64,000 nt of DNA from Actinoplanes sp. L3-i22 (GTDB lineage Bacteria; Actinomycetota; Actinomycetes; Mycobacteriales; Micromonosporaceae). The stretch covers positions 9,950,001-10,014,000 of the forward strand of contig NZ_AP024745.1 of assembly GCF_019704555.1 (NCBI RefSeq), in the 5' to 3' direction. The notes beneath the pieces are model-generated. The model had not been told where the DNA came from, ran no database searches, and was given only the letters and a program-made list of their open reading frames with translations. A program made the position numbers and the translations under genes. Within the stretch, counting starts at the first letter, position 1; each line of letters starts with the position of its first letter. This document shows, one piece after another, positions 20,024-23,371 of the stretch.

Positions 20024-21022
20024 TCAGGTGCGGTTGCGGAGGCGGGGCAGGATCTCCGTCGAGTACAGGCGGAGGAAGCGCTCCTGGTCCGGGCCCGGCG
20101 CGTGGAACACCAGGTGCTTGAAGCCCATGTCCAGATACTCCGTCACCTTCGCCGCGTGCTCCTCCGGGTCGGACGAGACGATCCAGCGGGTCGCGGTGCG
20201 CTCGACCGGCAGGGCGTCGGCGAGGCGCTGCATCTCGACCGGGTCCTCGACGCCGGTCTTCTCCTCCGGGGAGAGGGCCAGCGCGCCCCAGTAATGGGTG
20301 TCGTCGCGCGCCCGGTCCAGGTCGTCGTCGAAGGAGACCTTGACCTCGATCAGCAGGTCCAGGTCGTCGATCTTGCGACCGGCCTTCTCGGCGCCCTCGG
20401 TGACCGCGGGCAGCAGCGTGTCGGTGTAGAGCGCGTGGCCCTTGCCGCTGGTGGTGATGAACCCGTCGGCGATCCGGCCGGCCAGCCGGGTCGCGGCCGG
20501 CCCGGAGGCGCCGATGTAGATCGGCACCGTCGTCTCCGGCTTGTCGTAGATGGTGGCGTTCTCGGTCTTGTAGAACTGCCCCTCGTACGTCACCCGGTCC
20601 TCGGCCCACAGCTTCTGGATCAGCAGGACCGCCTCCTTGAGCCGGGCGAACCGCTCCTTGCCGTCCGGCCACGCGGTGCCGAGCGGCACCTCGTTGAGCG
20701 ACTCGCCGGAGCCGACGCCGAGGATCGCGCGGCCCGGCGCGAGGCAGCCCAGGGTGGCGAACGCCTGCGCGACCACGGCCGGGTGGTAGCGGAACGTCGG
20801 GGTCAGCACGCTCGTGCCGACCAGGACCCGCTCGGTCCGTGCGGCCAGCGCGCCGAGCCACGGCAGGGCCGCCGGGGCGTGGCCGCCGTCGTGCCGCCAC
20901 GGCTGCAGGTGGTCGCTGACGAAGACCGAGTCGAAGCCCAGCTCCTCGGCGAGGATGCCGTACTTGAGCAGTTCAGCCGGCGCGAACTGCTCCGCCGACG
21001 CCTTGTACCCGAACCGAATCAT
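20024..21022 (-). CDS. fgd: F420-dependent glucose-6-phosphate dehydrogenase
   Basis: A 332-residue LLM-superfamily enzyme that oxidises glucose 6-phosphate to 6-phosphogluconolactone and reduces F420. It follows the Mycobacterium Fgd1 pattern closely: GYKASAEQFAP, VSDHLQPWRHDGGHAP, GTSVLTPTFRYHPAVVAQAF, GFITTSGKG and HLVFHAPGPDQERFL. The active-site His in SDHLQPW and the Trp beside it are retained. TAGGCT lies seven bases before the ATG, so the mRNA is leaderless. It would supply F420H2 to the two LLM oxidoreductases in the window. Confidence 0.9.
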   Translation of the reverse strand: MIRFGYKASAEQFAPAELLKYGILAEELGFDSVFVSDHLQPWRHDGGHAPAALPWLGALAARTERVLVGTSVLTPTFRYHPAVVAQAFATLGCLAPGRAILGVGSGESLNEVPLGTAWPDGKERFARLKEAVLLIQKLWAEDRVTYEGQFYKTENATIYDKPETTVPIYIGASGPAATRLAGRIADGFITTSGKGHALYTDTLLPAVTEGAEKAGRKIDDLDLLIEVKVSFDDDLDRARDDTHYWGALALSPEEKTGVEDPVEMQRLADALPVERTATRWIVSSDPEEHAAKVTEYLDMGFKHLVFHAPGPDQERFLRLYSTEILPRLRNRT

Positions 21023-21032
21023 GAAATTGAGC

Positions 21033-22847
21033 CTAACCCGCCGCGCGGTACGCCTTACCCGCCTCGGTCGGGCTGTCCCCGTCCTTGTACAGGCCGAAGT
21101 CCACGCTGTCCCCCACGGCCGGGAGCCCGAACCAGGCGTAGCGCTCGACGAACGAGCGTTTCTCCAGGCCGGCGGTGGTGCCCTTGATGAACGTGACCTT
21201 CTGCGCGTCGGTCGGGTACTTCGGCGATCCGGAGAAGTTCATCAGGCCGAACTCGGTGATCCAGATCGGCTTGTTGTACCGCTTGTGCACGGCGTCGACG
21301 TAGCCGAGGAACTGGTTGACCGAGGCGGCGCTGAAGTCCGAGCCGTACCAGTGCAGCGCGATCGCGTCGACCCGGTAGCCCTTGTCCTTCGCGCCGGTCA
21401 TGAAGCGGTCCAGCCAGCCGCCGGCGGTGTCCCCGCCGTACGCGACCGCCGGGCTGACCAGGCGCATCCCGGTCGCCTCCAGCTGTGGCCAGGCGGCCAG
21501 CGCGTCCTCGACGCTCATGTTCGCCTGCCCGCCCATGTCCGGCTCGTTGAAGCCGAGCAGCACCTTGCCCTCGGACTTGGCCTGCTTCAGGGTGGCGCTG
21601 GTGAGGTTCTGCTTGCCCCAGATCATCGGGACGAACTCGACGTCGGCCGGGCCGGGCACGTCGTTGTTCTGCGACGCCCAGTCGTAGTACCAGCCGGCCC
21701 CGACGTCCTGCAGGGCCGCCTTCGACCCGGTGAACTTCCAGACGCCGACCCCCTTCTTGGCCGAGGTGGCGGCGGCCGGCACGGCCGCTTTCGGGGATGC
21801 GGAGGTACGGCGCGGGGTCGGCGACGCGCTGGACGGCGCCACCGACGGGGCCGTCGAGATGATCGTCGACGGGGACGGCGCGACGACCACCTGCGCGGCC
21901 GGGGCGGCCGGGGTGTTCTGCGCGCTCAGCGCGTAGACCGCCGCGCCACCGCCGCCGACCACGCTCACCGCGAGCGCGGTGACCAGTGCCTTCTGTGCGG
22001 CGCCGGCCCCGGCCTTGACGGCGAGCTTGCCGACGACCGCCTTGCCTCCGCTGTACGACGCGGTGCCGGCCGAGCCGGTCAGGCCGGCGGTGAGCGCGGA
22101 CGGCGGCACGATCAGGGCCAGGCCGGCCAGCAGCCGCTCGGCGGCGACCAGGTCCTGCCAGGCCGGGGCGCAGAGCCGGCATTCCCGGGTGTGCCGGGCG
22201 ATCCGCTTGCGCCACAGCGCGTTGGGCCGGTGGTCCCACGGCTCGATCAGCACCGCGAGCTCGCCACAGATCGGCTGGCGGTGCAGCGCCCGGACGACCG
22301 CGCGGGCCGTCTCGAGCTGGCCCTTCATCCGCTGGATCCGGACCGCGGCGTGCTGGCGGCCCAGGCCGGTGCCGTCGACGATCTCGTCGCGGGTCAGCTC
22401 GCCGGAGGCCTCCAGCCACCAGAGCGAGAGCAGCTCCCGGTTCTCCTCGTCCAGCCAGCGGGTCGCCTCGGCGGTCTCCCGGCGCTGGCCGGACAGCTCG
22501 AGGCGGGTGATCGCCAGGTCGGTGAAGTCGGCGCCCGGGTCGCGCAGGTCCGGGTCGAGCGGGGTGTCCGGGGCCGCGCCGCGGATCCGGAACCGGTCGC
22601 GGACCTGGCGCACCGTGATCGCGACCAGCCAGGAGCGGAACGCCTCGGGCTCGCGGAGCTCACCGAGGTTCCGCAGGACCCGGATCATGGTCTCCTGCAC
22701 GACGTCGTCGACGTCGGCGTGCCCCTCCAGCGCCCGGCCCACGATGGTGTAGACGAGCGGGAGATAACCGGCCACGAGCCGGTCCACCGCGGCCGGGTCG
22801 CCGGCTCGTGCGGCCACCACCGTGGCGGTGTCGGGTTGGTTCGCCAT
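21033..22847 (-). CDS. ECF sigma factor fused to ZAS motif, TM helix and GH128 domain
   Basis: A 604-residue multidomain protein. Residues 20-85 are a sigma-70 region 2 (HADVDDVVQETMIRVLRNL) and 115-175 a region 4 helix-turn-helix (TRDEIVDGTGLGRQHAAVRI). Near residue 220, HTRECRLC matches the HxxxCxxC zinc anti-sigma signature. One membrane helix (about 286-305) and a Pro/Ser/Thr linker lead to an extracellular GH128/Asl1-like glycosidase domain (365-604). Both candidate catalytic glutamates are kept, GFNEPDMG (near 433) and ITEFGL (near 530). ECF groups with C-terminal carbohydrate-active extensions are known in actinobacteria. I infer a membrane-held sigma factor that senses beta-glucan or the cell surface. 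GGAGGAAAGGG precedes the ATG. Confidence 0.88.
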   Translation of the reverse strand: MANQPDTATVVAARAGDPAAVDRLVAGYLPLVYTIVGRALEGHADVDDVVQETMIRVLRNLGELREPEAFRSWLVAITVRQVRDRFRIRGAAPDTPLDPDLRDPGADFTDLAITRLELSGQRRETAEATRWLDEENRELLSLWWLEASGELTRDEIVDGTGLGRQHAAVRIQRMKGQLETARAVVRALHRQPICGELAVLIEPWDHRPNALWRKRIARHTRECRLCAPAWQDLVAAERLLAGLALIVPPSALTAGLTGSAGTASYSGGKAVVGKLAVKAGAGAAQKALVTALAVSVVGGGGAAVYALSAQNTPAAPAAQVVVAPSPSTIISTAPSVAPSSASPTPRRTSASPKAAVPAAATSAKKGVGVWKFTGSKAALQDVGAGWYYDWASQNNDVPGPADVEFVPMIWGKQNLTSATLKQAKSEGKVLLGFNEPDMGGQANMSVEDALAAWPQLEATGMRLVSPAVAYGGDTAGGWLDRFMTGAKDKGYRVDAIALHWYGSDFSAASVNQFLGYVDAVHKRYNKPIWITEFGLMNFSGSPKYPTDAQKVTFIKGTTAGLEKRSFVERYAWFGLPAVGDSVDFGLYKDGDSPTEAGKAYRAAG

Positions 22848-22978
22848 CTTCAGCCCTTTCCTCCGGCGCCCGGGGCGCCAGGTAGGGAGACGGGCGCGAG
22901 GAACATGGATAACACGAATCGGGGACGCGGTGTCCCTCCACACGGTTAGCCCTGGTACCGATCGGGCACAGAAATGGC

Positions 22979-23371
22979 ATGCGTATGTCGGTTCGGCTCA
23001 ACCTTCCCCGCGAGGTCGACAGCGTTCCCGCGGTGCGCCGGCTGCTGCGCTGCGCGCTGAGCATCCTGCGGGCCGACGAGCAGGCCGGCTCGGATCTCGA
23101 GATCGCGCTGACCGAGGCGTGCGCGAACGTGGTCAAGCACGCCGACGGCGCCCAGGGCTACGAGGTCCACCTGGAGGTCGGCGAGAACCACTGCTCGATC
23201 GACGTCGTCGACGACGGCAGCGGTTTCGAGCCGGCGGCCGAGCTGGCCCAGTCCGCGACGAACGAGCACGGCCGCGGCCTGTTCCTGATCCGGGCGCTGG
23301 CCGAGAACGTCCGGATGCAGTCGAGCCCGCGCACCGGATCACTGATCCACTTCGAGAAGTCCTTCGCCTGA
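22979..23371 (+). CDS. RsbW-like serine kinase / anti-sigma ATPase
   Basis: A 130-residue GHKL ATPase of the HATPase_c_2 type. The N box is EACANVVKHADG (near residue 47) and the G1 box is VDDGSGF, followed by HGRGLFLIRALAE. In partner-switching systems such kinases bind a sigma factor and phosphorylate an anti-anti-sigma protein. It is divergent from the ECF-GH128 gene and followed 90 bases later by a SpoIIE-type phosphatase, its usual opposing enzyme. ATG at 22979 and 22985 are both possible. Confidence 0.85.
   Translation: MRMSVRLNLPREVDSVPAVRRLLRCALSILRADEQAGSDLEIALTEACANVVKHADGAQGYEVHLEVGENHCSIDVVDDGSGFEPAAELAQSATNEHGRGLFLIRALAENVRMQSSPRTGSLIHFEKSFA

Follow-up and report, generated by a model that had tools for sequence, protein, structure and literature searches.

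The gene sigGH128 of Actinoplanes sp. L3-i22, a soil bacterium with a 12.0-Mb genome on one contig, encodes in a single chain an ECF sigma factor, a zinc anti-sigma domain, a membrane helix and a GH128 domain. On the basis of its computed architecture, conserved catalytic and zinc residues, synteny and an upstream motif with its genomic sites, we propose, at a probability of roughly 60%, that the protein senses beta-1,3-glucan, a sugar polymer of fungal walls, as a membrane-tethered, self-inhibited ECF sigma factor and is released to act on its regulon as follows. At rest, the zinc domain would grip sigma2 and sigma4 in cis on the cytoplasmic side of the membrane. On the outside, the GH128 domain would bind beta-1,3-glucan, whether from the walls of fungi or oomycetes, from callose or from laminarin, and probably cut it too. 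Engagement of glucan would expose the variable linker to a protease, and intramembrane and cytoplasmic proteolysis would then free the sigma factor. The freed sigma would read TGTTATC-N15/16-CGTCTCC, raising expression of its own operon, including an F420-dependent glucose-6-phosphate dehydrogenase, and inducing putatively secreted beta-1,3-glucanases (GH16 in this strain, GH16 or GH64 in relatives); in other relatives the targets would also take in a SARP regulator and a DUF1996 protein. Such a system would show by what means filamentous soil bacteria perceive glucan of the fungal type.

Architecture of the one-chain protein

In the window, which is the whole 64,000-nucleotide stretch of DNA analysed, sigGH128 (604 aa) occupies positions 21033..22847 on the minus strand, with its ATG at 22847, its stop at 21033 and a GGAGG 12 nt 5′ of the ATG. 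A preliminary description of this DNA had read the ORF as a single-polypeptide sigma/zinc/membrane/GH128 protein and had named a frameshift between the domains among the findings that would count against it. The ORF is open throughout and gave Pfam and TIGR02937 matches to its parts, and a full-length orthologue without internal stops is present in all 12 Actinoplanes among the 20 genomes compared (own included), which rules out a frameshift or artefact. Actinoplanes missouriensis has the orthologue P0111, and P0014 is the protein of Actinoplanes sp. SE50. The matches listed for the 8 genomes from other families span the sigma region only. The domain order is sigma region 2, sigma region 4, zinc site, membrane helix, Pro/Ser/Ala-rich linker and GH128 subgroup I.

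Sigma region 2 (residues 5-90; 22578..22835, minus strand) matched Pfam Sigma70_r2 at residues 24-87 (3e-14), and its PDB sequence matches were SigH, RpoE and SigE. Region 4 (residues 120-190; 22278..22490, minus strand) was assigned from coverage by TIGR02937 (sigma70-ECF, residues 20-179, scoring 54.1 bits where the cut-off is 42.9), from model helices (per-block pLDDT of 88-97 from residue 121 onward) and from Foldseek, which matched the model to SigW in the SigW/RsiW structure (E 6.7e-5); a Pfam scan at E up to 1 returned neither a separate region 4 match nor a region 3 match. With sigma2 and sigma4, no sigma3 and TIGR02937 above its cut-off, sigGH128 is an ECF sigma factor. The structure model used was built from 87 diverse rows (mean pLDDT 81), an earlier one from 27 close homologues having been poor (mean pLDDT 56). 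The VIA-align rows span mainly residues 359-604 and barely cover the sigma and zinc parts. Conservation along the protein is highest in sigma regions 2 and 4 (mean identity 89-90%), nearly equalled by GH128 (82%), while the linker (30%) and the juxtamembrane parts drift.

The cytoplasmic ZAS-like domain (residues 191-245; 22113..22277, minus strand) contains four potential ligands in the arrangement C194-x24-H219-x3-C223-x2-C226. The HxxxCxxC anti-sigma motif pointed out in the preliminary description is thus present as H219/C223/C226, and C194 adds a fourth potential ligand that completes the ZAS-type set. All four residues are invariant in 120/120 proteins (the best 120 of 4922 matches, window protein included), in the four paralogues of the same genome and in 87/87 diverse chassis proteins drawn from 237 retrieved; the pattern C-x20-32-H-x3-C-x2-C occurs in all 237, which were pooled from the best 120 of 4922 and the best 120 of 3565 matches. 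The Pfam zinc-finger model zf-HC2 matched neither sigGH128 nor any of the 10 relatives scanned out of the 237. It is this domain that we infer to inhibit sigma in cis.

The membrane helix (residues 284-305; 21933..21998, minus strand) was placed by Kyte-Doolittle hydropathy, and the model has a low-confidence helix at 284-295. The most hydrophobic window of the protein is 287-305, with a mean of 1.75. Among the best 120 of 4922 homologues, a window above 1.6 starts at residues 263-340 in 110, and the overall hydrophobicity maximum falls before residue 265 in 17. We hold with fair, not strong, confidence that sigGH128 has a single membrane helix, which is only moderately hydrophobic. It is followed by a fast-evolving, Ala/Ser/Pro/Thr-rich segment (residues 306-361; 21765..21932, minus strand), assigned by composition as an extracellular linker, with 10 Pro in 56 residues.

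The C-terminal domain (residues 362-604; 21036..21764, minus strand) matched PF11790 (Glyco_hydro_cc) at residues 382-600 (2e-54) and is 58% identical to the endo-beta-1,3-glucanase AmGH128_I of Amycolatopsis mediterranei (6uaq), with which it shares the subgroup I fold. Both candidate catalytic glutamates that had been reported as kept, E435 (codon 21543-21545) and E532 (codon 21252-21254, both minus strand), pair with E102 and E199 of AmGH128_I by alignment and numbering offset, which are the mutation sites of PDB entries 6uat, 6uas and 6ufl. The two glutamates are present in 120/120 homologues (best 120 of 4922) and in 152/152 sigma-fused GH128 proteins. Judged by its fold and catalytic pair, the outer domain is a member of GH128 subgroup I, and it can probably cut beta-1,3-glucan, which we infer to be its ligand. 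In contrast to the shared fold and glutamates, the sigma chassis of sigGH128 is rare among the 80 nearest named loci, occurring on two of them, and the remaining 78 show none. Among the nearest free GH128 proteins, many start with a signal-peptide-like stretch, so the domain could be a mere surface-anchored enzyme, its free relatives resembling ordinary exported enzymes. Derivation of AmGH128_I itself from a sigma fusion was considered and is unsupported by the nearest named relatives, a list in which A. mediterranei does not figure.

The F420-dependent glucose-6-phosphate dehydrogenase gene (20024..21022, minus strand; TIGR03554 469 bits, cut-off 420) starts 10 bp downstream of sigGH128 and adjoins it on the same strand in 12/12 genomes, and is probably the second gene of a sigGH128 operon. 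On the other side, an RsbW-like HATPase gene (22979..23371, plus strand; PF13581 1e-19) is divergent from sigGH128 in 12/12 same-genus genomes, as a context gene only. In the plus-strand segment 22979-24606 a SpoIIE-type phosphatase comes next after this RsbW-like kinase, the two making up a possible partner-switch system.

The predicted promoter element and its candidate targets

Alignment of the upstream regions of the 12 Actinoplanes orthologues revealed one strongly conserved block, TGTTATC-N15-CGTC(T/C)CCC, which starts 59-98 bp before the ATG and has the N15 spacing in 11 orthologues and N16 in one. In the window this block is a predicted ECF-type autoregulatory promoter, TGTTATC-N15-CGTCTCC, at 22886..22914 on the minus strand, shared by 12/12 upstream regions. 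A classical AACC-N16-CGTC promoter also seen in the window was rejected, being present in just 1/12 of them. Autoregulation through such a conserved element is the standard expectation for an ECF sigma factor, with sigGH128 as the presumed reader. Neither this promoter nor any target gene had figured in the preliminary description, to which the present analysis adds a predicted regulon.

The exact motif occurs twice in the 12.0-Mb genome, before sigGH128 and before a GH16 gene (reversed control 0), and a looser pattern recovered the same two sites and no more. The second site, at 11,084,737, lies 72 bp 5′ of a gene encoding GH16 with a ricin-type lectin, and the top PDB matches of the GH16 protein are glucanases, mostly named beta-1,3-glucanase or laminarinase. 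A second GH16 gene, with CBM5/12 (L113:757-1491, plus strand), ends just before this copy of the motif.

Across 40 Actinoplanes genomes, the exact motif was found at 65 sites in 34 genomes, and the reversed pattern and the wrong spacing (N11/12) at none. The sites divide into 32 self, 15 SARP, 6 GH16, 4 DUF1996, 1 GH64 and 7 others, the self matches being partly circular because the motif was built on self promoters. At 6/6 GH16 sites the GH16 match begins 161-181 nt past the motif; these six were assigned by tblastn with the own-genome GH16 protein, and only the own-genome one by Pfam. The GH64 protein behind the motif (L118) is a beta-1,3-glucanase (7e-96). At that locus the GH64 gene and sigGH128 are divergent neighbours with one motif copy each.

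The same protein and regulon might instead answer an endogenous glycan or wall or sporangium stress in development, the glucanases remodelling self material, and this is the foremost of the alternatives, although we judge it unlikely. It draws on the role in Streptomyces development of the ECF52 protein SCO4117 (available portion of PMC5826349), on the cutting of the Actinoplanes sporangium-matrix polysaccharide by secreted hydrolases (excerpted text of PMC12691653) and on the SARP-type targets, which suggest broader regulation. Both matrix hydrolases, however, are GH5 enzymes regulated by TcrA (same excerpts), the GH16 and GH64 targets fall in beta-1,3-glucanase families, and two paralogues of sigGH128 have plant-polysaccharide-type sensors adjoining matching enzymes; these points speak against this alternative.

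Among the non-self sites SARP regulators outnumber glucanases (15 vs 7), and all 15 SARP proteins behind the motif have a BTAD domain. They carry the motif in 15/40 genomes (L117, L143 and 13 similar loci), and 11 share a near-identical TGTTATCCATTGACACC... block; strain L3-i22 has no close SARP orthologue, its best match reaching 56%. The DUF1996 proteins are encoded behind the motif at L116, L129, L149 and L154; the domain is also common in fungi. Since related genomes share the non-self sites by orthology, the independent events are few (GH16, GH64, SARP, DUF1996). The seven remaining sites are L119, L128, L130, L136, L144, L148 and L156. At L128 (G028:C1:321348-324553; L128, L177) the element lies about 1.4 kb upstream of sigGH128 with a transposase-like ORF, recognised by eye, between them, so that insertion of a transposase-like gene has apparently displaced a self promoter here. 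L148 precedes a gene that looks glycosidase-like by eye and has no Pfam match, in a genome (G044) that also carries a SARP site.

In 81 genomes of the family, counted irrespective of the presence of sigma-GH128, the looser motif was found in 13 (reversed control 0). Of 19 loci classified, 7 precede sigma-GH128, 2 precede GH16 and 10 match none of five reference genes. Five of the 7 lie outside the genus, in 5 genomes from two genera, and there the sigma-GH128 gene is full length. In three genomes of genus g15 (L200, L201, L202) the motif precedes a membrane-protein-like gene of 182-183 aa, and the same three genomes also have a motif-preceded sigma-GH128; the L202 gene, the sole one of the three scanned, gave no Pfam match. 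Dactylosporangium fulvum (L108:1830) has TGTTATT-N15-CGTCTCC, with identical spacing, before its sigma-GH128 gene, and the element was not found upstream of the relative in Kutzneria sp. 744.

Several non-self sites are without an evident glucan link, and two of the ten unmatched family loci, in genus g47, precede a pectinesterase and a CBM2 protein. Sites of this kind would suit another ECF sigma factor as the reader, sigGH128 being merely one of its targets and the motif not reporting sigGH128 output. We regard this as improbable, given that the element stands before 12/12 orthologues and before sigma-GH128 genes in two further genera, which fits ECF autoregulation, and that the exact and looser patterns are both absent upstream of all four own-genome paralogues. 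The six Actinoplanes genomes lacking an exact site also argue against another reader: five keep sigGH128 with a GGTCTCC variant, one of them with CGTTATC as well (by eye), and the sixth (G037) is without gene, chassis and motif.

Known systems and proposed release of the sigma factor

The preliminary description had suggested that a sigma factor, its inhibitor and a glycan domain in one chain lay beyond what was known. That part of its interpretation falls, while the architecture, the zinc site, both glutamates and the idea of a sensor stand. According to the accessible portion of PMC8999054, ECF48, ECF52 and ECF53 bear, fused at the C-terminus, a zinc anti-sigma domain together with 1-2 membrane helices; SCO4117 (ECF52) of Streptomyces coelicolor further has a carbohydrate-binding domain and a stretch rich in Pro (PMC5826349, in the part available), and some ECF52/53 proteins carry predicted, unvalidated glycosyl hydrolase domains (excerpts of a review, PMC10766802). 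As far as these sources go, all three groups share with sigGH128 an N-terminal ECF sigma, a zinc anti-sigma extension and a membrane helix, and ECF52/ECF53 with SCO4117 also share the Pro-rich stretch, an extracellular carbohydrate-active domain, an actinobacterial host and a proposed proteolytic release. With its zinc site, membrane helix, Pro-rich stretch and carbohydrate-active C-terminal domain, sigGH128 probably belongs, judged by layout, to the ECF52/53 kind. It differs in that its outer domain is a GH128 with an intact catalytic pair and its predicted targets include glucanases, and its motif is TGTTATC-N15-CGTCTCC, where CSGYN-17-SRHA was proposed for SCO4117 (same part of PMC5826349).

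No description of a GH128-sigma fusion, of its promoter or of its targets was found in the accessible parts of the open-licence literature, and subscription papers may well print the layout. The available text of PMC10061750 has both "GH128" and "sigma factor", in unrelated places, and the main text of PMC11205660, on an Actinoplanes sigma factor, does not contain "ECF". The layout is already known, and what is new, within the open-licence literature, is the predicted link from ligand to regulon. The value of the analysis lies in a control-backed predicted regulon and in the matching of sensors to enzymes among the paralogues, rather than in the layout; sigGH128 gains a likely ligand class, a control-backed promoter element and a short target list, which make ligand, release and regulon jointly testable.

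The proteolytic steps that may free sigma from sigGH128 are proposed by analogy only, carried over from IutY and RsgI. Like sigGH128, IutY of Pseudomonas putida is a sigma fused to a membrane anti-sigma, and it is freed by proteolysis (accessible portion of PMC8999054), but it answers a siderophore in a Gram-negative host. The tethered sigma of sigGH128 might instead stay uncut and act in place once the anti-sigma domain opens. We give this rather little credence: in its favour, the chain is continuous with no evident protease site, and conformational activation is listed for other extension groups, yet for sigma-anti-sigma fusions the same part of PMC8999054 describes activation of IutY by proteolysis and expects it likewise for ECF48/52/53, and RsgI sensors operate by stepwise cleavage (excerpts of PMC12203970). 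A non-functional sigma part, leaving only a membrane-anchored beta-1,3-glucanase, is very improbable: it would agree with the signal-peptide-like starts of the free relatives and with a region 4 that Pfam does not recognise, but not with regions 2 and 4 as the most conserved parts, TIGR02937 above its cut-off and a conserved ECF-like promoter upstream.

SigI is not known to be an ECF sigma factor. Clostridium thermocellum has several paralogous SigI/RsgI pairs whose sensors (CBM3, CBM42, PA14, GH10) control enzyme genes (PMC12203970, in the part available), and the sigGH128 family is similar in having multiple paralogues per genome with differing polysaccharide sensors. The clostridial system consists of two proteins, with an autocleaving periplasmic domain in RsgI, whereas sigGH128 is one chain with a zinc anti-sigma domain; an RsgI N-terminal or autocleaving domain was not among the five Pfam matches to sigGH128 at E up to 1. 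By analogy, sigGH128 probably acts as a clostridial SigI/RsgI glycan sensor would if fused into one chain, yet it is not a member of that family.

Paralogues on the same chassis

Four paralogues in the L3-i22 genome match the first 345-368 residues of sigGH128 at 47-51% identity and then diverge. Their outer parts are AbfB in two, which we take to correspond to CBM42, a pectate-lyase-like right-handed beta-helix in one (its pectate-lyase-like matches lie below NCBIfam cut-offs) and no known domain in one. Two of the four adjoin genes for matching polysaccharide enzymes. One AbfB paralogue (L011:9422-10996, plus strand) lies among arabinofuranosidase, GH43, GH10, melibiase and GH127 genes, a match to arabinose/xylan, and the pectate-lyase-like paralogue (L010:8460-10538, minus strand) stands about 200 bp from a divergent pectinesterase gene, a match to pectin. 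The paralogue with no known outer domain (L009/L002) adjoins an alginate-lyase-family gene, and the second AbfB paralogue is at L012/L005.

One chassis with differing outer domains points to a modular receptor family. We tentatively extend this to a wider suggestion, which we think is possible but hold to be doubtful: that Actinoplanes has a repertoire of one-chain sigma receptors with swappable polysaccharide-recognition domains, each inducing the enzymes for its own polysaccharide, as a fused counterpart that evolved apart from clostridial SigI/RsgI, and that in the GH128 member, as a live-enzyme receptor, the signal is gated by cutting of beta-1,3-glucan rather than by mere binding. Swappable sensors could serve to build polysaccharide-responsive gene switches. 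The same chassis is joined to GH128, CAP or alginate-lyase domains in other actinomycetes, with the CAP (SCP) domain in P0138 and many Streptomyces proteins and the alginate lyase in P0218.
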